A DNA stretch of 36,978 nucleotides from a virus. The notes beneath the pieces are model-generated. The model saw nothing but the letters and a program-made list of their open reading frames with translations. It was not told where the DNA came from and made no database searches. The stretch spans positions 1-36,978 of IMG/VR virus record IMGVR_UViG_3300025154_000254, one strand, 5' to 3'. Below, piece after piece: positions 1-36,978 of the stretch. Each line of letters opens with the position of its first letter. The stretch's first letter is position 1. The position numbers were made by a program, and so were the translations under genes.

Positions 1-31
1 CTAGTTCATTTATTTGTTCAGATCTATGTTC
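1..31. repeat. Fold-back inverted copy at the left end (probable artefact)
   Basis: Bases 1-32 are the exact reverse complement of 64-95, giving 32-bp arms separated by 31 bases. The other copy of this locus, at the right end (from 36853), does not have the fold-back: there the sequence upstream of the shared repeat is a terminator hairpin. The simplest reading is a chimeric hairpin end from strand-displacement amplification or assembly. A true covalently closed hairpin end is less likely because the right end lacks it. Confidence 0.85.
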
Positions 32-157
32 CAAAAATGCCCCCTATTATTAGAGGAATTTATGGAACATAGATCTGAACAAATAAATGAACTAGTTGCC
101 GCGCTCATCTCTGCTAAAAGTGAGATGGGATCTGCTATAAAAGATAAAAAAGGATTT
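32..157. repeat. Left copy of 126-bp terminal direct repeat
   Basis: Bases 32-157 are identical to 36853-36978. The repeat covers the ERF ribosome-binding site and the first 32 codons. It means the contig closes on itself, from a circular map, a circularly permuted genome or short terminal redundancy. The unique length is 36,821 bp. Sequence alone cannot separate an assembly overlap from true terminal redundancy. Confidence 0.95.
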
Positions 158-3631: not shown

Positions 3632-3675
3632 TACAACAGGGATAAACAATAAATTTATTGTTTATCCCTGTTGTA
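3632..3675. terminator. 44-bp perfect palindrome between fibre genes
   Basis: Two 22-base arms (3632-3653 and 3654-3675) are exactly complementary with no spacer. In RNA this folds into a long hairpin with stem GGGATAAACAATAAA closed through the AAATTT centre. It fills most of the gap between the fibre genes ending at 3691 and starting at 3597. It could terminate or stabilise transcripts on either strand. No long U tract follows, so RNA stabilisation or processing is as likely as termination. Confidence 0.7.
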
Positions 3676-20322: not shown

Positions 20323-20658
20323 TTAATACTTTGAAGGATAGCGTTCGTGTTTGATCTTACGACCATCGCGTTTATTTTGCTCATCTACGCCTTTTATAGT
20401 GTCATCTAGTTCATAACTAGCCCCTGAAGTAGTAGGATATGCCTTAAAAATAACATTTTGTGGCATGTTGGCAAACGATGTCCGATCATCAGGGATCATA
20501 TGCCCTGCTTCACGTTCATCTTCTCTGCGGTTATCATACCCATCATAATAAGATGATCCTAGTTTTTTCATACTTTCTCCATGCTCCATTTCTTCATGAC
20601 GCTCTAAGCGATTAATACGTGTGCTCATCTTATTAGCATAAAACTTCTTTTTTGGCAT
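20323..20658 (-). CDS. Hypothetical small protein next to portal
   Basis: This 111-aa charged protein has MPKKKFYANKMSTRINRLERHEEMEHGES at its start and a mid-protein DDRTSFANMPQNVIFKAYPTT. The second half often appears as a short conserved strand in small proteins beside podovirus portal genes. A GGAGG-like site sits before the ATG. It is likely a minor virion or assembly factor. No motif gives a function. Confidence 0.55.
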   Translation of the reverse strand: MPKKKFYANKMSTRINRLERHEEMEHGESMKKLGSSYYDGYDNRREDEREAGHMIPDDRTSFANMPQNVIFKAYPTTSGASYELDDTIKGVDEQNKRDGRKIKHERYPSKY

Positions 20659-20706: not shown

Positions 20707-22737
20707 CTACCTCATCTGTGACGTCACAGGGGCAGGAGATGTTGGTGTAACTTCAGGAGTTGTTCCTGTAGCTTGCAAAGACTGGGTTAATTTCACGATC
20801 TCTGTGAGATGTTTTAAGTCTATGCCTTCAATTTCTTTAAGTGCTTTAACAAGATCTAAGAATCCTTGTTCTTTATTACGAGCTGCATTAGCATCGCGTT
20901 CACGAGCTTGTGCTTGGTTATCCATAACGCGTGATGTACGTTCCATACCAAGGCCTTCATTAGCTGCAGCAGTAGACATAGCCACTTTAGTCTGAGCTTC
21001 TTGTAATTTGAGCATAGTTTCATCCTGTTTAGCTTGAGCATCAGCAGCTTGTTTTTGCCGTTCTTGGACTTCCTTAACCAAACGAGATTTGTTTTGGATG
21101 GTAGCTGCTTCAAGCAATGCCGCAGGGTCTATATCAACGCCTGCTTCTTTAAGTTGTAGTAGTTGTGCAAAGTTCATCTGTTTTTGAGTAGTGGTGTTGA
21201 ATCCTTCTTCGATCATCACATCATAGTTACCAAAAGCTTTAGAATAAAACTGTTGAGATGGTTCTTCGCCAAGAATGCGTTTCATCTTACCAGGGGTAAA
21301 ATTTGCTTGAATAAGTTTTAGTAACACACGCCCTAATAAGCGTTGAGAGTGATCAAGTTGGTCAAAGAGACGCTGAAGCGTTGTAAGCCCAGCTCCTTGA
21401 CGTAACATAGCTAGAACACCAGCTTTATCATCTATGGCAGACCCAAGTAATTCTTCATTAACACCAGAAATCTGATTAATTTCTTTGGATAATGACTCGG
21501 ATAGAGCCAACATCCCTGGTGGTATATCTGGGGCCCTAATCTGCTCTACATCAGTCATCTGAGCTTCTTCTTTAAGAGCAAGTCCGCGACCTTGGCCTGA
21601 TAAGAACACATCTTTAGGGTTAACTAATGCATTTTCTTTATATTTAAACCCAGAATTGATCTGAGATTCTAGAATATCAAGTTCTATACACCGGCGACGA
21701 TTATAAAGATATTGAGCATCACGTAGTCCGCGTACTACACCTTGTATCCGTTGTGGGAAATAAGGCATTTGTGGTTCATAGTAACCTAAAACAGGTATAA
21801 AGGGATAGATATCTATGCCCATAGGATTAAGACCGTCATACATCACTTTACCTTGAACTACTATAGCCATTTTCACCGTAGAAACATCTTGATCTATTTC
21901 TATAATTTGTGGATATCGGCTTAAAAATGCTACTAACGCAGGTTCGTCTGTAGATTTCCATTCAAGACATTCTCCTGTTTGTGTATCTATTAACATCTTC
22001 TGGGGACGAGATGATTTGTACCAAAACTCATCATAAGTAAGTAAGTTCTTCATACCGTAGTTATAGTTTTCAGTCATAAACTGAAACTTACCATCACGAT
22101 TATCATGGCCCTGCAACCCCATAATCTCTTCACTATAACCAGACAATAGAGACAAGCACTCTCGCTTAGTTAAATACGATCGCTTCCATAAAGCATTACA
22201 ATCAGATAGATCTGCTTTTCTGAAAAATGGATCTATTAAAAATGAATTATAGGAGCAATTATCTACCTTAATATCTCCAGAAATAGGATCGCTACGATGA
22301 TCAACCCATACTTGCAATAGATTCATACCAGTAACTAAAGCACCATGGAAAGCATCTGAAATAGTCTCAGATATGCCCTCTCGTTGGTTTAACCACATAA
22401 ATGTTTTAGTAAACTGGTCTGCAGTAGGAGCATCAGCATTTTCTACAGGTGTAGCAATAGTAGACTTGCGATTTCGTCGTTGGTACCCACCTATCATTTC
22501 AATAGTAGGGCGTATACGATTAAAATTAAATTGCTTACGACGATTTAACGGGAGGTTGCCATAGAGATCATTCCACATGGTCTGATCGCCTGCTTCGAAC
22601 CTAGTATCTGTATCTGCTTCACCCCAAAACGACTGGTTAATGGTTATAGATTCAGCATAAAATGCTTCCATCCTTGCTAATACATCTCTATGACTTTCGC
22701 TAGCATAGGCGCTACCAAACTGAGGAAATAATGGCAT
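20707..22737 (-). CDS. Portal protein (P22-like family)
   Basis: This 676-aa protein has the hallmarks of the large P22-type portal: NRIRPTIEMIGGYQRRNRKS (about 72-91), VGYY-like stretches such as MGIDIYPFIPVLGYYEPQ, and QGVVRGLRDAQYLYNRRRC (about 325-343), then a long helical barrel part (QISGVNEELLGSAIDDKAG, RQGAGLTTLQRLFDQLD). A Gln/Ala-rich helical C-terminus (about 570-676) fits the barrel. The dodecameric portal forms the entry ring for DNA and docks TerL. GGGAG precedes the ATG. Residues 570 onward have strong coiled-coil character. Confidence 0.85.
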   Translation of the reverse strand: MPLFPQFGSAYASESHRDVLARMEAFYAESITINQSFWGEADTDTRFEAGDQTMWNDLYGNLPLNRRKQFNFNRIRPTIEMIGGYQRRNRKSTIATPVENADAPTADQFTKTFMWLNQREGISETISDAFHGALVTGMNLLQVWVDHRSDPISGDIKVDNCSYNSFLIDPFFRKADLSDCNALWKRSYLTKRECLSLLSGYSEEIMGLQGHDNRDGKFQFMTENYNYGMKNLLTYDEFWYKSSRPQKMLIDTQTGECLEWKSTDEPALVAFLSRYPQIIEIDQDVSTVKMAIVVQGKVMYDGLNPMGIDIYPFIPVLGYYEPQMPYFPQRIQGVVRGLRDAQYLYNRRRCIELDILESQINSGFKYKENALVNPKDVFLSGQGRGLALKEEAQMTDVEQIRAPDIPPGMLALSESLSKEINQISGVNEELLGSAIDDKAGVLAMLRQGAGLTTLQRLFDQLDHSQRLLGRVLLKLIQANFTPGKMKRILGEEPSQQFYSKAFGNYDVMIEEGFNTTTQKQMNFAQLLQLKEAGVDIDPAALLEAATIQNKSRLVKEVQERQKQAADAQAKQDETMLKLQEAQTKVAMSTAAANEGLGMERTSRVMDNQAQARERDANAARNKEQGFLDLVKALKEIEGIDLKHLTEIVKLTQSLQATGTTPEVTPTSPAPVTSQMR

Positions 22738-22784: not shown

Positions 22785-22818
22785 AATAGTCTAGAAAGAG
22801 TTTCTATAAGAGTGCAAC

Positions 22819-22893
22819 CTTAAGACCTTACCTCAGCGCAATACTTCTTCACCTTAAGATCCTACCTTAGAGTAATACTTCTCTATCTTAAGA
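22819..22893. repeat. Three CTTAAGA elements at exact 34-bp spacing
   Basis: CTTAAGA occurs at 22819, 22853 and 22887, each exactly 34 bases apart. The spacers also match: CCTTACCTCAGCGCAATACTTCT and CCTACCTTAGAGTAATACTTCT are alike. About three helical turns separate the sites, so a protein could bind them on one face. They lie in the gap upstream of the portal operon (minus strand), a position for an operator or activator site. The duplication could instead be passive. Confidence 0.6.
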
Positions 22894-22904
22894 TAAGATC
22901 TTAA

Positions 22905-23162
22905 CTAGGTATTAAATCTTTTTAATAAAGAAATCAACACACGTGTTAACCACCAATGTTTTTTAATCTTCCTCTTACTATAATGCCTACATGGTTTATT
23001 AGCCGTAAGCTTTATATTTTGTAAATTACTTTCCATCTCTACTCCGCATGGGTTATTATCCCAGCCAGAACATTTAACATGATAAATAGCTGATTTATTA
23101 CGATCTTGTAGGCGTTTTATAACAACCCATTTACCTATTTTATTTCTTGGCTTCAACTTCAT
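22905..23162 (-). CDS. Small putative zinc-binding protein
   Basis: This 85-aa protein begins KLKPRNKIGKWVVIKRLQ, then has Cys at VKCSGWDNNPCGVE and a final C-x-H (KPCRHYSKR), which could form a zinc site of the C..C..CxH kind. Similar folds (a short strand, a W/YxVKCxxCG, and a C-x-x) occur in phage small Zn-ribbon or HNH-associated DNA-binding proteins. No nuclease motif follows. Its ATG is preceded by AAAAAGGATTAGATA, just downstream of an ssb fragment. In an ancestral arrangement it directly followed ssb. Confidence 0.5.
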   Translation of the reverse strand: MKLKPRNKIGKWVVIKRLQDRNKSAIYHVKCSGWDNNPCGVEMESNLQNIKLTANKPCRHYSKRKIKKHWWLTRVLISLLKRFNT

Positions 23163-23178
23163 TATCTAATCCTTTTTA

Positions 23179-23271
23179 TTAGGTGTTAAAAGAGCGCTTA
23201 GAGTGTTTATTTTCTTCTTTATCTAACCAATTATCTTGTTTTAGACATCCCTCTACCAAAACAAGATGCCC
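23179..23271 (-). pseudogene. ssb fragment (short)
   Basis: Translation of the minus strand gives about 30 residues: GHLVLVEGCLKQDNWLDKE then a divergent EENKHSKRSFNT and a stop. This matches the ssb segment GDPILVEGRLKQDNWLDKE (full-length gene at 24551). A stop lies directly upstream in frame, so it cannot be made alone. Neighbouring DNA also matches ssb (TCTTTATCTAACCAATTATC is shared). It is a relic, located right after the last cassette gene. Confidence 0.8.
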
Positions 23272-23291
23272 TTAAAATACAAGTAGAAGAG

Positions 23292-24005
23292 CTAAGCTTG
23301 AGATTTCATAGCATCCATCTGGTTTTCGATCATCCTAATAATTGATTGGATATGATACCCAACTCTTTTTTTATGTTTCAGGATTAAATTCGCTTCTAAC
23401 TTACAACAGCCAATAATAAAATCTACCAAGCCTTCATCTCCATATAAAGTTCTTAAGACATGGATAGCCTGTAAATCTTCTGATAGGTAACGAAATTCCA
23501 CCAAGAACTCATCGTATTTTTTAGACTTAGCAAGCGCGCTGTCGTTATTGAATATTTCAGTATTAACATTGAAGGCTTCTATCATTAATCTTCTGGCGGC
23601 AGTTTCTCCTGTTTTTTTAGAATCCATTTTTCTTAAGTCCCACAAAATCTCATGGAGCTTCTCCATCCATATCTTTTTTGCATTTTCCATATTTGTCCTC
23701 ATTCCGCTAACTAACTCATCATTGGCTATGGAAACAGTAAAGCCTTGTAACGAAGCTGCTATTAGATGTTCAATTTGAGTGCATGCGTCTATATGAGATT
23801 GGATTTCTTTAGTGCCCATACCAAATGTAATAGCAGATACTAGCTTTTTTAAGTTCGCATCTAGCATGTCTATAAGTTCATTTTTTCTTGCTCGGTCAGA
23901 AGAATCCGATTTGGGAAAGATCTCAATATAGTTATTAAGGTTAGCTTGTATTTTATCTGCTATATCGCGGGGATTTTTTTTAACATAAAGCATCAGTATT
24001 CCCAT
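23292..24005 (-). CDS. Unknown cassette protein B
   Basis: This 237-aa protein is helical, with no recognisable family. It has VKKNPRDIADKIQANLNNYI near the start, a long helix (KNELIDMLDANLKKLVSAI), and a Cys pair in IIGCCKLEANLILKHKKRVG (about 200-219). There is no membrane segment, signal peptide or known catalytic motif. It overlaps the upstream gene by 26 bases (ATG at 24005; an ATG at 23993 is also possible), so the two are coupled. Its location in a cassette flanked by ssb remnants marks it as acquired accessory DNA. Defence, anti-defence or regulatory roles are all open. Confidence 0.6.
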   Translation of the reverse strand: MGILMLYVKKNPRDIADKIQANLNNYIEIFPKSDSSDRARKNELIDMLDANLKKLVSAITFGMGTKEIQSHIDACTQIEHLIAASLQGFTVSIANDELVSGMRTNMENAKKIWMEKLHEILWDLRKMDSKKTGETAARRLMIEAFNVNTEIFNNDSALAKSKKYDEFLVEFRYLSEDLQAIHVLRTLYGDEGLVDFIIGCCKLEANLILKHKKRVGYHIQSIIRMIENQMDAMKSQA

Positions 24006-24300
24006 TAAGAAATTCGAGTTTCTTTATTAAAGCTGCATAATCAAATAAAAACACTTGCGCGCTAAGATTAACTCTTTTTATATCCGCCCCATCTTCTCTA
24101 GGGTAAAAATGGCATTGTATTAATTGGAATAAACGATTTTGCATAATCTTAAAAAGAACCTCAAAATCCTTATCGCTAAAGAACCCTTTTTGGCTCGCTA
24201 TTATATGTATCTCTCTACGATCTTCCAACGCGTCGCCAATAAACCTAGTAGCCTGGTCATGGTTCATGTAAATATTATCTAACCCTATGAGCTTTAGCAT
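23980..24300 (-). CDS. Unknown cassette protein A
   Basis: This 106-aa protein is not recognised. It has GDALEDRREIHIIASQKGFF and KDFEVLFKIMQNRLFQLIQCHFYP, then LSAQVFLFDYAALIKKLEFL, consistent with a small mixed alpha/beta or all-helical fold. Its ATG overlaps the stop of the truncated ssb (ATGCTAA), so translation is coupled to that frame. It is followed by gene B with another overlap. Together the two look like one acquired unit that needs both products. Confidence 0.6.
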   Translation of the reverse strand: MLKLIGLDNIYMNHDQATRFIGDALEDRREIHIIASQKGFFSDKDFEVLFKIMQNRLFQLIQCHFYPREDGADIKRVNLSAQVFLFDYAALIKKLEFLNGNTDALC

Positions 24301-24536
24301 GGTAAACTATCACTAAACATCGCTTGTACTTCAGCTGCAGCCTTGGCCATAGCGTCAGAGGATTTAACTAATTCAGGGTCTACATCTTTGGGCCAGCTTT
24401 CTCCGGCTCCGGAATCTTTAGGCTTGAGGGAAATTATATGCTCACCTAGGATACAGTGCTTGCTGCGCTTAGCCCCGCTTTCTTTATCTAACCAGGTATC
24501 CTGCTTTAGAGAGCCTTCTACCAAAATAGGATCACC
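24294..24536 (-). pseudogene. Truncated second ssb copy (C-terminal part)
   Basis: In frame, this region encodes KGDPILVEGSLKQDTWLDKE, then SGAKRSKHCILGEHIISL, equivalent to the middle of the full-length SSB, then a divergent acidic tail ending MFSDSLPC (compare AAFVDDLPF of the intact SSB). The N-terminal half of the OB fold (about 60 residues) is missing. The repeat after the intact ssb stop is fused directly in front. No ribosome-binding site is present, so expression would need readthrough or coupling. It could be a relic, or a partial SSB with an altered tail. Confidence 0.75.
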
Positions 24537-24550
24537 CTTTTTATTAGGTG

Positions 24551-25015
24551 TTAAAAAGGTAAATCATCTACAAATGCGGCAACAGCTTTAATCGTAGGAG
24601 AAGGATTAACTTTATTTAACTCAGCTTCTATATCATCACCTAAAAAGGCTGTGTTAGAATCACCAATTCCCTGATCTGTAGAAGAGCTTTTAGTTCCTAA
24701 AAACACTACAGAATCAGCAATGATAGAGTGTTTAGAACGTTTATTACCTTCTTTATCTAACCAATTATCTTGCTTCAGCCGTCCCTCTACCAAGATAGGA
24801 TCACCCTTAGAGACATATTGCTTTACAAGTTGGGCCTGTTTATTCCAGACGTTTACTTCAATAAAACAGGTCTCGTCTATAACAGCTCCTGTTTTGCTCT
24901 TGCTCTTACGGTTAACCGCTAAGCTAAAATTACAAACACTGTTCTCTCCAACCGCTTTTAATACAGGGTCAGATGTTACATTGCCCATCATGATGACTTT
25001 ATTAAATGATGCCAT
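24551..25015 (-). CDS. ssb: Single-stranded DNA-binding protein
   Basis: This 154-aa protein matches bacterial and phage SSB: MASFNKVIMMGNVTSDPVLK at the start (the family NKVILIGNLGxDPE), VCNFSLAVNRKSK (about 28-40), CFIEVNVWNKQAQLVKQYVSKG (about 51-72), and DPILVEGRLKQDNWLDKEG. A linker and an acidic C-terminal tail ending AAFVDDLPF follow; the DDLPF end matches the SSB tip that recruits partners. I selected ATG 25015, with GAGGGAT upstream, instead of a longer frame from 25030. It is the intact copy among three ssb-related segments in 2 kb. It may serve replication and ERF annealing. Confidence 0.9.
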   Translation of the reverse strand: MASFNKVIMMGNVTSDPVLKAVGENSVCNFSLAVNRKSKSKTGAVIDETCFIEVNVWNKQAQLVKQYVSKGDPILVEGRLKQDNWLDKEGNKRSKHSIIADSVVFLGTKSSSTDQGIGDSNTAFLGDDIEAELNKVNPSPTIKAVAAFVDDLPF

Positions 25016-25223: not shown

Positions 25224-25691
25224 TTATACATTTGCAGCGCAGAGCGCTACTGCTAATGCATCTGTTGCATCATAGGTTATAGGTTCTCCTTGTAAACAAG
25301 GGAACTTCCGCTTAATCTTATCAGCTACCTGCTCTTTTTCAGCATTACCTGCACCTACTATCATCCGCTTTACCTCACGTGGAGCATATTCATGTAGCTT
25401 TAAGCCATGTTTTACATGAAGCATAAGTAATATACCACGCAAATAACCTAACTTAACAAACGTATTCATGTTTTTACCAAAAAAGGGCGTTTCTATCGCT
25501 AGATCTGTTACCTTATAGTCAATAATTAGCTTTTTTATCCCATCATGGAATACGGATAAACGATCAGGCAATGGATATTTGGACTTTTGGGTTATAACAC
25601 CATAGTGTAATAGTAGTATATGGTCATCTATTACCTCTATGATCCCATAACCTGCTGCAACAAAAGAAGGATCTACCCCTAATATAATCAT
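25224..25691 (-). CDS. ruvC: RuvC-like Holliday junction resolvase
   Basis: This 155-aa protein shows the RuvC active site: GVDPS with Asp7, AIETPFF with Glu67, and YDATDALAVALCAA with Asp141 and Asp144, the four acidic residues that bind two metal ions. RuvC cuts four-way junctions symmetrically; phage versions resolve recombination or branched replication intermediates before packaging. It overlaps the end of terL by 4 bases, so debranching is linked to packaging. Length equals bacterial RuvC (about 170) minus a short C-terminus. Confidence 0.9.
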   Translation of the reverse strand: MIILGVDPSFVAAGYGIIEVIDDHILLLHYGVITQKSKYPLPDRLSVFHDGIKKLIIDYKVTDLAIETPFFGKNMNTFVKLGYLRGILLMLHVKHGLKLHEYAPREVKRMIVGAGNAEKEQVADKIKRKFPCLQGEPITYDATDALAVALCAANV

Positions 25692-28600
25692 GGTTCATCC
25701 CTAAAAAATGATGGTAAATATCCTTGAGGATGCATAGTTTCTTGATAACGTTTTTCTAGTTCTTCTGGAGTAGTGCCTTGTTTGATCTTAGGTAAGGATA
25801 TAGCCATATACCTAAAGCTATCTGCAAAATGGCTTGAATAGTCATGAGCAGGGTGATCTTTATAGATCTTATTTTTTGTATCAAACTCTTGGTGGTAATT
25901 CTCTAAAGCTGTTATAAGCGGCCTAGACGTTGTTTCATTAAACCAACAACGTGGCAATAAAGACCGTACAGCTTCTATGCCATCTATTACAGGCATCTTA
26001 GGAGCTATAAAAAAACTTATACCTAATTGCCTAGCTTTATCAATACGCGCAACACCCGTAGAAAATTCCCTAATAGCAAGATCCCAAGGCCCCACATGCC
26101 TCCCATAGACATAAGGTTTATCAAACACCACCTTAACATAATGCTCTAACCCTTCCTTGGTGTTCTCGTACGTGTCTATAATATGGACATTGCTACCTAT
26201 CATCTGAAAAAATATAATCGTCGTACTATCTCTTATCCCAAGATCCCATGCCGTATGAACTCTATGTCCAGGATTCCATGGCACTTCACCTATCTGACCC
26301 TTAACCTTTAACCCATCTATATACTTAGCATAATACGCTCCCTCCACTCCCAACGTAAAATCCGTATAGTACTCCTGCTGGATCAAGTCTTCGCTCATTA
26401 TACCTTCTTGACGCTCTCGCTCTATATCCTCCTTAGTAATGTGCTTAGTGTCCTCTATCGTAAGCTTGGAACAGTACCATAACGGCGATTCCTTCGCTAC
26501 TTGGTAGAGGTCCCATAAATGATTTTTCCCCCTGGGGGTGTTATGAGATAGAAATAAATTTGAAAAAAAGCTATTTGTCCGCGGTATTACGAAATCGAAG
26601 ACTTGTGACAGGCTGTAATGAATCGAGGCAACGGGAGAATAATACAACTTCTCTGATAATAACTCTTGAAGATAGGGATGAGGGTGGCGATTGTTTAGCC
26701 AAGATATTAACCGACGCGTCATACGCTTGGGGTTGGTTACTAGGTTTTTGGGTAGACTGTAGCCCATTAATCGTGCGGTATCTATAGGATAAACATTTCC
26801 TGATTCTTCTCGTAGTTTATCACATATATTTGACCAGTTTTTTTGCTTACGCTCTAACCTAAAGCCTATATCTCTATAAAATACGTGGGCAAAATGCCCT
26901 GTTATTTCAAGGTTATAGATTATAGAAGAGACTTTAACTATTTTAGTGGGGCGCTTAAACTCTTTTCTGATATTACCCATTATTCCAAAATTAGATAAAA
27001 CAACTTGCAGTGTTTTAAGAAAACTTAAAGATGTAGAAGTTAACTTAACTACACCCTTTTTATTTGGGTTAGAAGCACTACATCCATCTCCATCAAATAC
27101 ACCTTGCAAGAACGATGTCATCTGCCGCTTAGTACAGGATAATAGACTGTCAGGGAAGGATTTGTTTACAGCTTTATGCTTGAACCCTAAATACTCTAAA
27201 GCTCTACATAAAGCTCTTGAACAACAGATATGATGTATCCCATCAGGCGCCGTCTTAAATCCCATAGAATGCAAGAAATCTATAATCTCTGCATCTTTTT
27301 TCTTGGTTATCGTTGCCGAAAAAGAACTATAACAACCATCCGCGTGGAATAACCCTAAAAGATAAAAGAAGTCATCGTTACTATGCGACGGACCTTCTAA
27401 TATAGACAATAAAGCAGGCTTTTTACTTGCCGAATCCATAAGATCTTGCCTTATCACCTCCGTTATCTTTACACCATCACCCCATACATCTTGCCCATAT
27501 TGCAATGGTAACAAGTCTCCCACTTTTAAATCAGATGACTCTACCCACTTAGATCCATCCCATAACCTATGAACAGACGTACATTCTATCTCTGCTCCAT
27601 TTTCTAACACAATCTTTAATGTAGGAACTTCTTTATCCCCACCATAATAAAACTGCTCTGCTTCATGAAAACCTCCTATACCCCATATATTCTTATGAAG
27701 ATCAGAATACTCCTCCCTACTCCTAGAAACATCCTTTATCCTAACTAATCCCTTATCCCCTATAACCAACGTCTCAGGCCCCACACAAGATAAAAAAAGA
27801 GCCCACCCATCATTAGCCGTCAATATAGGCCTCAAATACTTGTACGCTCTAGGATCTTGTAACGCATACTCAGAAAAAACACATGCTATAGGGTTAGTTC
27901 CCATCAAACTATCAAAGTTATCACTACCCACCAACTGCAATAAAGACCCATTAACAAACCGTATCTTCATCTCCTGAGCATTTAACCCATTCTTCGCTAT
28001 CAACTCCTTAGGAATAAAATCTAGTACCCTCAACCCCTCCGTAGTAATACTATCCCATATAACCTTCTTCGCCTGCGCATACGTCGGGAATATATAAAAA
28101 ACTACACACGGCTTCCTAAGACACTGACGTATACATAAATTCCACCCCATAATATCTTTGCCACTATTATGCACCAACCAGCCATTAGCAAAAAAATTAC
28201 CGTTAACCTCCGTCTCCAAATCATACAACTTAGACTCTGCTGATGGCTGGTTATTCACCTCAGCCGGATATAGACCTTGCACTTTCCCGTGACAATTAGA
28301 AATAGTGCCATTTTGGGCTTCTGTAAAACCGGAGGGGAAGCTTCCGACTTCCAAATCTCCATATAGAGGCATACCCCCCTGTACAGAATCACAAGTAGTG
28401 TTAATTTTTTGAGTCGCACTTATATTAATTTTTCTTAGAACATTGCAACGTTGGATATCCGGGCTTTTCTGCGTGTTTTGCGCGCTTTTTAAAACCATGG
28501 ATTTACGCAACAGATCGGCGTAGACAGACGCTTTTAGAACCGATTGTACGTCTAATAGCTTGTTTTGGTTTTTTAGTGCGTTGTTTTTTGCGCACAATTT

Positions 28601-29983
28601 ATTTCGTTTTATGGCGTAGAAAAAGGATTTTTTTATCTCTATTTTTTTTCTCTCGTCTGTTATCGCTTCCGACAGTGTGCCATTTTTAGCTTCCAGTGTA
28701 GATAAATCCTGCATATCTAAGCGGGTTTTAGGGGTTCTTAGATTTATCCTGCTTAATACAGCGTGCACCATTCGGTTTCTATGAGGTTGGCTAGGTGTGT
28801 CTTTGGCTATTAGCTCGTCGTGGTGGTTAAGTAATAGGTAGAGATCATTATCATGGTGCAAGATCATGCTATAAGAAGTTGTAGCACGTACATTAGAAGA
28901 GTTTTCTACAGAGTCAGGAACTGTCGGTCTAAGGCCTAATTTACGTAATAGCCAGTACCAACTCCACGGTACATATCGTATGTGATTAAATATAATCGCG
29001 CTATCGTTTAAATTAACGTTATTCTCTACATCGGTAGCTAAGTTAATTAAGTTACTATCATAGAGAACCACAGTTCCATCTACGGTAATAATAGATTTTA
29101 TGGCCAGTAACAACGCCTCATAAGACAGTTCCCATAATAAGTTGGGTAATTTATGAGATAGATGATAATAATGCAAACGTAAGCGATGTATCCAATTAAA
29201 CAATGGACGATTTTCGCCTGTAATTACTCTATAACCTAAGATATAGGTAGAACCCGTTTGCTTCCATGTCCCCTGTATATTAAATAGCTGCGATATGATG
29301 TCTTCGATGCGTTCTAAAATTATACGACATGACGTAGTAAAGTTAATGTCTTTGCAGGATAAATACGCAATGCTAGATAAACAATATCCCACTAACTCAG
29401 CTTCAAGCGGCTTAATCTCCGTAACACTAATTGCTAACGATGGGCCTGAGTATTGCAAGCAGTGAACACCATGGTTTTCATGCTTTATTTGGTCTGTATG
29501 TACATGCCCTATAGTAGACCAGGTAACAGGTGAATATACGTACTTATTAACATCGGTGTTATTATACGAACGACGTTGCGTTATGGCGAATTTATGATCG
29601 AAGCTTGAGGTAAGTGTTGGGTAGCCATAAGAACTTGTCTCTACGGTAGCCCTAGTTGCGGTTTGCCATATGTTACGCACTTTGTCTGGCACTGTTTTGT
29701 TGCCGTCCCAAGAAAGTATCTCGTCACCTGGTTGTATGTCTTTAAGTAATTTATAGTCTCCGTTGGCCATCAATATGTGAGTATCACCTGATATGCAGCG
29801 ACGTGGCCATATACAAAGACAGCGTCTATAGTTACGTTCCTCTATCGCTACTATCGGAGGAATCTGCCAAGCTCGTGCTTGGAACTTCAACTCTATCTGG
29901 GGCGTTTTGCGTGATCTTTCCTGCGACGTTCCATTTACTGAACTGCTCGTCGCTCCTGTTGACGTTATGACTGTATCGCTCAT
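25688..29983 (-). CDS. terL: Terminase large subunit carrying two inteins
   Basis: The 1,431-codon frame encodes a 471-residue TerL after removal of two inteins (residues 63-606 and 733-1148). Joined text reads IWPRR|SGKD (Walker A, GxxxxGK type), NPIACVFSEYAL (Walker B with acidic E), and ALFLS|TPRGKNHLWDLY (motif III). Nuclease parts follow: HTAWDLGIRDSTTIIFFQ, VGPWDLAIREFSTGVARID and DYSSHFADSFRYMAI with Asp residues for metal binding. TerL translocates DNA into the prohead by ATP hydrolysis and cuts concatemers. The inteins must splice out for activity because both break ATPase motifs. I chose ATG 29983, with AGGAG 6 bases upstream (a GTG lies one codon earlier). It overlaps terS by about 150 bases. 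Confidence 0.95.
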   Translation of the reverse strand: MSDTVITSTGATSSSVNGTSQERSRKTPQIELKFQARAWQIPPIVAIEERNYRRCLCIWPRRCISGDTHILMANGDYKLLKDIQPGDEILSWDGNKTVPDKVRNIWQTATRATVETSSYGYPTLTSSFDHKFAITQRRSYNNTDVNKYVYSPVTWSTIGHVHTDQIKHENHGVHCLQYSGPSLAISVTEIKPLEAELVGYCLSSIAYLSCKDINFTTSCRIILERIEDIISQLFNIQGTWKQTGSTYILGYRVITGENRPLFNWIHRLRLHYYHLSHKLPNLLWELSYEALLLAIKSIITVDGTVVLYDSNLINLATDVENNVNLNDSAIIFNHIRYVPWSWYWLLRKLGLRPTVPDSVENSSNVRATTSYSMILHHDNDLYLLLNHHDELIAKDTPSQPHRNRMVHAVLSRINLRTPKTRLDMQDLSTLEAKNGTLSEAITDERKKIEIKKSFFYAIKRNKLCAKNNALKNQNKLLDVQSVLKASVYADLLRKSMVLKSAQNTQKSPDIQRCNVLRKINISATQKINTTCDSVQGGMPLYGDLEVGSFPSGFTEAQNGTISNCHGKVQGLYPAEVNNQPSAESKLYDLETEVNGNFFANGWLVHNSGKDIMGWNLCIRQCLRKPCVVFYIFPTYAQAKKVIWDSITTEGLRVLDFIPKELIAKNGLNAQEMKIRFVNGSLLQLVGSDNFDSLMGTNPIACVFSEYALQDPRAYKYLRPILTANDGWALFLSCVGPETLVIGDKGLVRIKDVSRSREEYSDLHKNIWGIGGFHEAEQFYYGGDKEVPTLKIVLENGAEIECTSVHRLWDGSKWVESSDLKVGDLLPLQYGQDVWGDGVKITEVIRQDLMDSASKKPALLSILEGPSHSNDDFFYLLGLFHADGCYSSFSATITKKKDAEIIDFLHSMGFKTAPDGIHHICCSRALCRALEYLGFKHKAVNKSFPDSLLSCTKRQMTSFLQGVFDGDGCSASNPNKKGVVKLTSTSLSFLKTLQVVLSNFGIMGNIRKEFKRPTKIVKVSSIIYNLEITGHFAHVFYRDIGFRLERKQKNWSNICDKLREESGNVYPIDTARLMGYSLPKNLVTNPKRMTRRLISWLNNRHPHPYLQELLSEKLYYSPVASIHYSLSQVFDFVIPRTNSFFSNLFLSHNTPRGKNHLWDLYQVAKESPLWYCSKLTIEDTKHITKEDIERERQEGIMSEDLIQQEYYTDFTLGVEGAYYAKYIDGLKVKGQIGEVPWNPGHRVHTAWDLGIRDSTTIIFFQMIGSNVHIIDTYENTKEGLEHYVKVVFDKPYVYGRHVGPWDLAIREFSTGVARIDKARQLGISFFIAPKMPVIDGIEAVRSLLPRCWFNETTSRPLITALENYHQEFDTKNKIYKDHPAHDYSSHFADSFRYMAISLPKIKQGTTPEELEKRYQETMHPQGYLPSFFRDEP
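26540..27787 (-). mobile_element. TerL intein 2 with LAGLIDADG endonuclease (S|TPRG site)
   Basis: This 416-residue intein begins with Cys after ...ALFLS and ends His-Asn before Thr of TPRGKN, so nucleophile, terminal Asn and +1 Thr are all present. Block A is CVGPETLVIGDKGLVRIKDV; the B-block TSVH lies near residue 70; FSNLFLSHN is the C-terminal block. Between them are two LAGLIDADG motifs, LLGLFHADG (about 143-151) and FLQGVFDGDG (about 226-235), each with the catalytic Asp, so the homing enzyme appears intact. It would cut intein-free terL alleles at the conserved motif III DNA. Confidence 0.92.
28166..29797 (-). mobile_element. TerL intein 1 in the Walker A motif, large insert
   Basis: This 544-residue intein begins CISGDTHILMANGDYKLLKD (block A) directly after IWPRR and ends YDLETEVNGNFFANGWLVHN before SGKD, with the expected Cys1, His-Asn end and Ser+1. 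Block B carries SSFDHKF with His68, Ser in place of the usual Thr. Two LAGLIDADG-like segments are weak: LVGYCLSSIAYLS (135-147), with the catalytic acid replaced by Ser, and LLLAIKSIITVDGTVV (229-244), which keeps Asp240. A Lys-rich stretch follows (about 365-440). Splicing elements seem intact; the endonuclease looks decayed. Confidence 0.9.
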
Positions 29984-30464
29984 CACTGTCTCCTAAAAGC
30001 CTTGAAGGTGCCATCGGTATAGCATCGGTAGCTGCGTAACGCTCCATGATAATTACAGGCGTGTTACTCGATCCTCCAATTGCCAACTCCTGCTTCCTTA
30101 ACCCAGACTCCCATTTCATCTGCTCTTTTACTTCATTACTGTAATAAGCGTGAGTTTTAAGCACCAACAACGGGTTAAGACGGTTATATAACGCTTCAGT
30201 CTCCCTACGAACCCCTAACTTAGACACCGCTAACTCATACGCAGTTCTTAACTTTTCATGCTTATCCATCCATCGATGAAACGTCTTAGGGTCTATCCCC
30301 TCTCGGTTAGCAAAATCCGCTATGCATAACGAGGTAGACTCATCCGACCAACTATCCAGCCGTTCACACATCTCTTCCAAATCTATAATCGTTACATCAT
30401 CATCTTTAAGTATACACCTGCGCTTCTTCACCGGCTTTACAGACTCATCCCCTCGCACGTCCAT
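29832..30464 (-). CDS. terS: Terminase small subunit
   Basis: This 210-aa protein has a central helix-turn-helix type segment, CIADFANREGIDPKTFHRWMDKH (cut here to note FANREGIDPKTFHRW), followed by LRTAYELAVSKLGVRRETEALYN and a coil EQMKWESGLRKQELAI. Its order upstream of terL fits. TerS recognises the packaging site and forms a ring that regulates TerL. I selected ATG 30464, with AAGGAG five bases upstream; a GTG two codons earlier is possible. The C-terminal Ser/Asp-rich 50 codons overlap the start of terL. Confidence 0.8.
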   Translation of the reverse strand: MDVRGDESVKPVKKRRCILKDDDVTIIDLEEMCERLDSWSDESTSLCIADFANREGIDPKTFHRWMDKHEKLRTAYELAVSKLGVRRETEALYNRLNPLLVLKTHAYYSNEVKEQMKWESGLRKQELAIGGSSNTPVIIMERYAATDAIPMAPSRLLGDSDERYSHNVNRSDEQFSKWNVAGKITQNAPDRVEVPSTSLADSSDSSDRGT

Positions 30465-33328: not shown

Positions 33329-33901
33329 TTACTTATTAACACCTAATTGCCGAGCAATCAATTCTATCAAACTTAATGGAGCTGCTGCTTGCCCTAACTT
33401 ATCGTTTATTTTAGCGCTTGTATCTATAACCTGGTCCATCCGATCAATAATAGGCGGTATAAGATCTGCAACATGTTGTACATCATCATGAGTTGCTACT
33501 GAGTTAATATGGTCAGATGCTATGTGATTAAGTTCTGCCGCAGTTTTAGTTGAATTGCTGATCTTTGTGTCTATCACATCAAAACGTTGCTCTACATTGA
33601 TCCTGGTGCGTGTTATATGGTCTTGTATTGCAGTAGCCTGGCTCTCTAGATGTAGCACTGTTTTTTTTATGTCATTTAGTTTTGGTAGAGTGAGATACCA
33701 CGCTAAAACAGTAGCGCTACTTCCTAATATCGTAGCTATGCTTTTATTATAGCGCCATGACTTATGCCTACCTAAAGCGTAAGATGCGACAGTAGTTCCT
33801 GAACCAATCAACCAGGGGTTCCCGTAGGAGATACTAGCTTTAGCTGGTAGAAATAAGGCTAGAGCTAGTACGTATACGGAGGATCGTAATAAGTTTTTCA
33901 A
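33329..33901 (-). CDS. Membrane protein with coiled coil
   Basis: This 190-aa protein has an N-terminal hydrophobic segment (SSVYVLALALFLPAKASIS) like a signal peptide with a cleavage after AKA, and a second hydrophobic span at about 52-72 (KSIATILGSSATVLAWYLTL). Then comes a long heptad-rich region (about 73-170, LHLESQATAIQDHITRTRIN, FDVIDTKISNSTKTAAELNH). The layout resembles phage membrane-anchored coiled-coil proteins, such as spanins or superinfection blockers, but no family is recognised. Position next to small membrane proteins supports an envelope role. Confidence 0.55.
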   Translation of the reverse strand: MKNLLRSSVYVLALALFLPAKASISYGNPWLIGSGTTVASYALGRHKSWRYNKSIATILGSSATVLAWYLTLPKLNDIKKTVLHLESQATAIQDHITRTRINVEQRFDVIDTKISNSTKTAAELNHIASDHINSVATHDDVQHVADLIPPIIDRMDQVIDTSAKINDKLGQAAAPLSLIELIARQLGVNK

Positions 33902-36852: not shown

Positions 36853-36978
36853 CAAAAATGCCCCCTATTATTAGAGGAATTTATGGAACATAGATCTGAA
36901 CAAATAAATGAACTAGTTGCCGCGCTCATCTCTGCTAAAAGTGAGATGGGATCTGCTATAAAAGATAAAAAAGGATTT
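36853..36978. repeat. Right copy of 126-bp terminal direct repeat
   Basis: Identical to 32-157. Here the upstream neighbour is the terminator hairpin and not the fold-back, so this copy shows the native junction between the secreted-protein cluster and the ERF gene. Confidence 0.95.
36883..36978 (+). CDS. erf: Repeated 5' end of ERF gene (partial)
   Basis: The first 32 codons of the ERF gene appear again before the contig stops. It is the same locus as 62-694 after circularisation, not a second gene; AGAGGA precedes the ATG in both copies. Confidence 0.9.
   Translation, partial: MEHRSEQINELVAALISAKSEMGSAIKDKKGF

Follow-up and report, generated by a model that had tools for sequence, protein, structure and literature searches.

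The locus between ssb and an 85-aa gene in the window (36,978 bases, an IMG/VR virus record) is, on balance, probably a recombination scar, in which a segment from related phages would have been captured into an ancestral ssb/85-aa junction. On the minus strand the gene order is terL, ruvC, a 55-aa ORF, ssb, the cassette, the 85-aa gene and portal. The features of the locus are listed below.

24551-25015, minus strand: intact ssb, 154 aa (Pfam SSB, E 5e-32), with the C-terminal tip DDLPF and its own SD, GAGGG.
24536-24556, minus strand: copy A of a 21-bp direct repeat, comprising the ssb stop and AAAAAGG.
24294-24539, minus strand: ssb fragment 1, a diverged allele from codon 70 to the end, with an open frame and a stop that overlaps the start of the next gene.
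23980-24300, minus strand: 106-aa orphan gene without an SD, its ATG overlapping the fragment 1 stop.
23292-24005, minus strand: 237-aa orphan gene, helical, overlapping the 106-aa gene; likely start at 23993 (233 aa).
23191-23274, minus strand: ssb fragment 2, a third allele covering codons 70-97, with a 1-nt deletion near its start.
23171-23191, minus strand: copy B of the 21-bp direct repeat, reduced to serving as ribosome site for the 85-aa gene.
23192-24535, minus strand: presumed insert, 1,344 bp flanked by the two copies of the repeat.
22905-23162, minus strand: 85-aa gene, its product akin to the N-terminal module of HNH homing endonucleases from phages and without the nuclease part.

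The window genome is probably complete, as judged by its perfect 126-bp terminal repeat (window 1-157 and 36853-36978), and it encodes a P22-like portal gene and an intein-bearing terL. The first bases of the window fold back on themselves (1-41 versus 55-95), which is likely an assembly artefact. TerL (25688-29986, minus strand) carries two inteins, the first inside the Walker A motif (PRRC...VHN/SGKD) and the second, with a LAGLIDADG domain, at LS/TPRGKN; the TerL proteins of the relatives have no sequence at either position. A 190-aa ORF at 33329-33901 (minus strand) gave a weak match (E 0.003) to SLATT_fungal, a two-transmembrane effector domain. A perfect 22-bp palindrome without a spacer at 3632-3675 is perhaps a bidirectional terminator, and two tandem 34-bp copies (79%) lie at 22817-22884, between the 85-aa gene and portal.

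The first-pass annotation had set an intact ssb and two further ssb pieces around two overlapping ORFs, and all of them lie where it had put them. Its perfect 21-bp direct repeat with a spacing of 1,365 bp was also borne out, as 23171-23191 and 24536-24556 are identical at 21/21 bp and run in the same direction. With the terminal redundancy and the ssb fragments set aside, this is the sole exact direct 21-mer repeat in the window. As had been proposed, it takes in the ssb stop together with the downstream gene's ribosome site, the SD of the 85-aa gene (AAAAAGG) lying inside the repeat, 8 nt before the ATG. Read on the minus strand, the ssb end is ...GATTTACCTTTTTAA, followed by CACCTAATAAAAAGG and then by codon 70 of the second ssb allele (AAGGGTGATCC...), and after copy B comes ATTAGATAATG, with which the 85-aa gene starts. 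Such a combination of stop codon and SD is explicable only if the 21-bp repeat represents the ancestral ssb/85-aa junction. At the left joint, AAGG is common to the fragment start and the recipient ribosome site. The joins share only ~2-5 nt, and matches of 2-5 nt in A+T-rich sequence are weak evidence.

Fragment 1 matches the intact ssb at 24369-24542 (60% aa identity to codons 69-133) and continues in frame through to the ssb C-terminus. Fragment 2 matches at 23188-23283 (66% aa identity to codons 67-98, with one internal stop); its onset is ~18 nt downstream of the stop codon of the 237-aa gene, and it ends at about codon 97, where copy B of the repeat follows. The two fragments share one starting point in ssb, AAGGG at nt 208 (codon 70), and within ssb AAGGG occurs once and AAGG twice. 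Compared with the intact gene, fragment 1 gave a pS of 0.63 and a pN of 0.34 (76 codons), and fragment 2 a pS of 0.44 and a pN of 0.10 (24 codons), the figures for fragment 2 being rough because only 24-28 codons are available. By eye, fragment 2 had given the impression of a neutrally decaying pseudogene, which was rejected when the codon count pointed to mostly constrained divergence.

Both fragments thus appear to have diverged mostly as functional genes, which would make them alleles of other lineages (or old paralogues) and not fresh copies, and the three ssb alleles look too diverged to have been copied recently from one another. Because the 21 bp are identical while the ssb alleles have diverged, the ends are younger than the alleles, and the two observations together make a donor likelier than an in-place duplication. 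The donor with an ssb homologue that the first-pass annotation had envisaged therefore gains from the foreign alleles that bound the insert and from the identical ends. Recombination at the 3' end of ssb is not supported in the form it had proposed, since a simple homologous exchange there would replace sequence and not add it. Two different alleles in the fragments, together with such tiny joints, point to at least two joining steps.

Translation of the 106-aa gene is probably coupled to the ssb frame of fragment 1, for which a candidate TTG at 24524, ~10 nt after AAAAAGGG, could serve as the start. The 237-aa gene has a weak SD at its fifth codon (ATG 23993) and none at its first ATG, and translation may begin at the fifth codon. 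No promoter scored above chance in the cassette region. Homologues of the 237-aa protein were found in none of the 44 relatives' records, INPHARED, PLSDB, viral contigs or genome contigs, and homologues of the 106-aa protein in none of the relatives' loci, INPHARED or viral contigs. Weak Pfam matches of the 237-aa protein (Med14, 0.04; SLATT_3, 0.15) were not trusted. A PDB sequence search returned chance-level matches only, and AlphaFold single-sequence models were unusable (pLDDT 53 for the 237-aa and 50 for the 106-aa protein). PADLOC, which holds described defence proteins, gave no match for the 85-, 106- or 237-aa protein. Our guess is that the 106- and 237-aa products are small accessory proteins directed against the host or rival phages.

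We infer the donor's identity, the order of the joins and template switching, and the following course would account for the locus. The ancestral junction would have held ssb, a ribosome site and the 85-aa endonuclease remnant. Into it a 1.34-kb segment would have been gained from related phages with their own ssb alleles, and this segment would have brought the 3' half of the donor ssb, two genes translated in a chain with the donor ssb, and, as the residue of a previous join, a shorter piece of a third ssb allele. The likeliest step would be illegitimate joining on the scale of microhomology, or template switching, in a co-infected cell. Copying would exit the recipient at the AAGG of the ribosome site, enter the donor ssb at its sole AAGGG and return to the recipient 21 bp upstream, so that the ribosome site would be duplicated. 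Selection would then act as a filter, keeping the core gene ssb whole and a ribosome site in front of the 85-aa gene. The donor ssb end would have been retained because the 106-aa gene, lacking a ribosome site, would rely on ribosomes that have read the ssb frame to its end, and this need of translation would account for the longer stub in fragment 1. With neighbouring genes that touch or overlap, any join in front of the next ribosome site would have to lie within the end of the preceding gene to be viable, and a stub of variable length would result.

Neither an empty site (an ssb/85-aa junction without the cassette) nor a donor was found in the collections searched. The exact 21-mer occurred in no viral contig, and a megablast of the 9.3-kb region against INPHARED gave no match. 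Scans of viral contigs with the ssb, ruvC, 237-, 106- and 85-aa proteins, and of genome contigs with the 237-aa protein and ssb, found no close relative. Portal relatives were found at 80 loci (56-70% aa identity), and these do not have the ssb and ruvC of the window near terL and portal; a distant ssb (41%) is present elsewhere in one relative, and a distant ruvC (42%) in another.

The interval between terL and portal is a hypervariable accessory region in the relatives, and scars of a similar form recur there. At 7 of 64 loci, representing 6 independent cases, a second copy of the terL 3' end (21-111 bp) lies downstream of terL, beyond added genes that are known from mechanical ORF calls. 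The six cases are as follows.

L006: terL 3' copy, 111 bp at 94%.
L056: terL 3' copy, 32 bp.
L074: terL 3' copy, 27 bp.
L075: terL 3' copy, 27 bp.
L060, the same as L061: terL 3' copy, 24 bp.
L041: terL 3' copy, 21 bp.

The copy in L060 forms the C-terminus of an added 51-aa protein. L075 and L063 have the next gene in common, and the occupants between terL and that gene differ; the stretch shared by the two begins at a ribosome site. Copies of the terL start are found in L057, L030 and L007, and in L007 an HNH gene lies between the terL-start copy and terL. In L008 (949-1683) the first dozen portal codons are duplicated and fused before an HNH-like gene that directly precedes portal. The portal-start 'copies' in L024 and L036 were contig-start artefacts and were dropped, and several direct repeats in L025, L028, L045 and L056, considered as gene-end stubs, were intron-like instead. 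The repeated stretches GCGATAGTC... and CCGCCTAGAAATAGGTCAYAAAAGTAACAGAAT, present in L025, L028, L034, L036, L043, L045, L056, L061 and L079, look like multiple group I introns per phage; an Rfam RF00028 match in L045 (E 6e-4) was below its gathering score. In L054 (1841-4021), ~210 nt interrupt portal after codon 41, possibly as an intron.

A decayed tandem array is the alternative that fares best, and we consider it unlikely. Three ssb genes would have stood in a row, with two genes between the second and the third; deletions at short AAGG repeats would have trimmed the second and third, and the 21 bp would be 3' flanking sequence that the first and third ssb had in common. Such an array could decay to a similar map of three ssb-like pieces in one orientation, deletions between ribosome sites and AAGGG would give both truncations their common AAGGG start, and the purifying selection seen in the divergence of both copies is as expected for once-functional paralogues. 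However, the intact ssb and fragment 2 differ at a pS of 0.44 and yet have identical 21-bp flanks, for which a separate recent event would be needed. The stubs in the relatives are only 21-111 bp long, and no intact tandem core gene was found in their terL-portal interval.

A homing event is less probable still, and we regard it as quite unlikely. According to this explanation, an HNH endonuclease made a break at or beside ssb that was faultily repaired with DNA of a co-infecting phage, and the 85-aa gene is what remains of the enzyme. A profile of the N-terminal module of the relatives' HNH proteins (phrog_374) gave the 85-aa protein 24.6 bits (E 5e-6), and none of 5,000 shuffles scored above 9.9. 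By this match a degraded homing endonuclease would already have been present at the ancestral ssb junction, so that an origin driven by an endonuclease stays among the rivals. The HNH-like genes of L007 and L008, each placed precisely between a core gene and its stub, fit the same explanation. The cassette itself, however, has no nuclease domain, and the HNH catalytic domain gave no Pfam, PHROG or NCBIfam match in the 85-, 106- or 237-aa proteins. Most of the stub cases in the relatives have no HNH gene between the copies, and a cleavage site is not readable from sequence.

Short-range self-matches in the phage family were 88 direct versus 1 inverted, a count that takes in intron-like repeats and paralogous genes, and in eight unrelated phages (361 kb) they were 18 direct and 3 inverted. 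Some of the repeats in the unrelated phages lie at gene junctions, for example in RHph_Y1_10 (20418-20481 and 21109-21171) when compared with its gene table, so the process is not private to the family of the window phage. It is doubtful that the stub-and-repeat scars come from a dedicated process (for instance the HNH endonucleases of the family or a habit of template switching in replication) that adds genes at junctions and always re-creates the ribosome site, as opposed to random illegitimate joining followed by selection. A transposon-like insertion with a 21-bp target-site duplication would account for a perfect direct repeat around the insert but is very improbable, as there is no transposase or integrase among the cassette genes, no tyrosine or serine recombinase among the cassette ORFs and no clean terminal inverted repeat at the insert ends, these ends lie inside ssb pieces, and the repeat length ranges from 21 to 111 bp in comparable relatives.

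If the locus is read as a captured segment, it bears on how compact phage genomes can take up new genes while overlapping neighbours stay intact, which is usually visible only after the joints have faded. In the window and at about ten other places in the family, the joints still bear stubs of the neighbouring genes. From these retained stubs one can read where genes came in, in which direction growth went and that a ribosome site was required. Random joining and endonuclease-driven insertion become testable against each other through stub counts in phages with and without HNH genes.

Among known systems, the free-standing HNH homing endonucleases of phages (phrog_374) resemble the locus in that the 85-aa gene is kin to their N-terminal module, and they adjoin core genes in the family of the window phage, whereas an HNH nuclease domain is missing from the window locus. 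The mobile regulatory cassettes of T4-type phages (PeSL) resemble the window in their short repeated intergenic signals, which allow gene shuffling. PeSL repeats are promoter stem-loops scattered over the genome, whereas the window repeat occurs twice and consists of a gene end and a ribosome site.

The closest likenesses are in mycobacteriophages. Genes 43-46 of LRRHood (subcluster C1) occupy 1.35 kb between 29-bp direct repeats at a gene 3' end; its sister phages have a single repeat copy, and the insert carries a recognisable repressor (PMC3029335). The window likewise has ~1.35 kb of added genes between the copies of a short, perfect direct repeat that lies where a gene ends, but its genes are orphans, the ends of its insert are pieces of the neighbouring gene from other alleles, and no sister phage was found in the collections. 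In Island3 (cluster I), gene 68 is an orphan accompanied by a second copy of the 3' end of the upstream gene, about 50-60 bp long (PMC3029335). There too an orphan was added after a gene whose 3' end is repeated, although in Island3, as in L060, the repeat supplies the C-terminus of the orphan through an in-frame fusion, whereas the ssb pieces of the window are not fused to the orphans. Pope and colleagues favoured gain for LRRHood and left gain versus loss undecided for Island3 (PMC3029335). Of the features typical of these two cases, the window has the repeat of a gene 3' end and added genes that are absent from relatives. The window is a further, well-preserved case of known phage mosaicism of the LRRHood and Island3 kind, and what it adds to these precedents is the allele mismatch of the stubs, the argument from translational coupling and the recurrence within one phage family.
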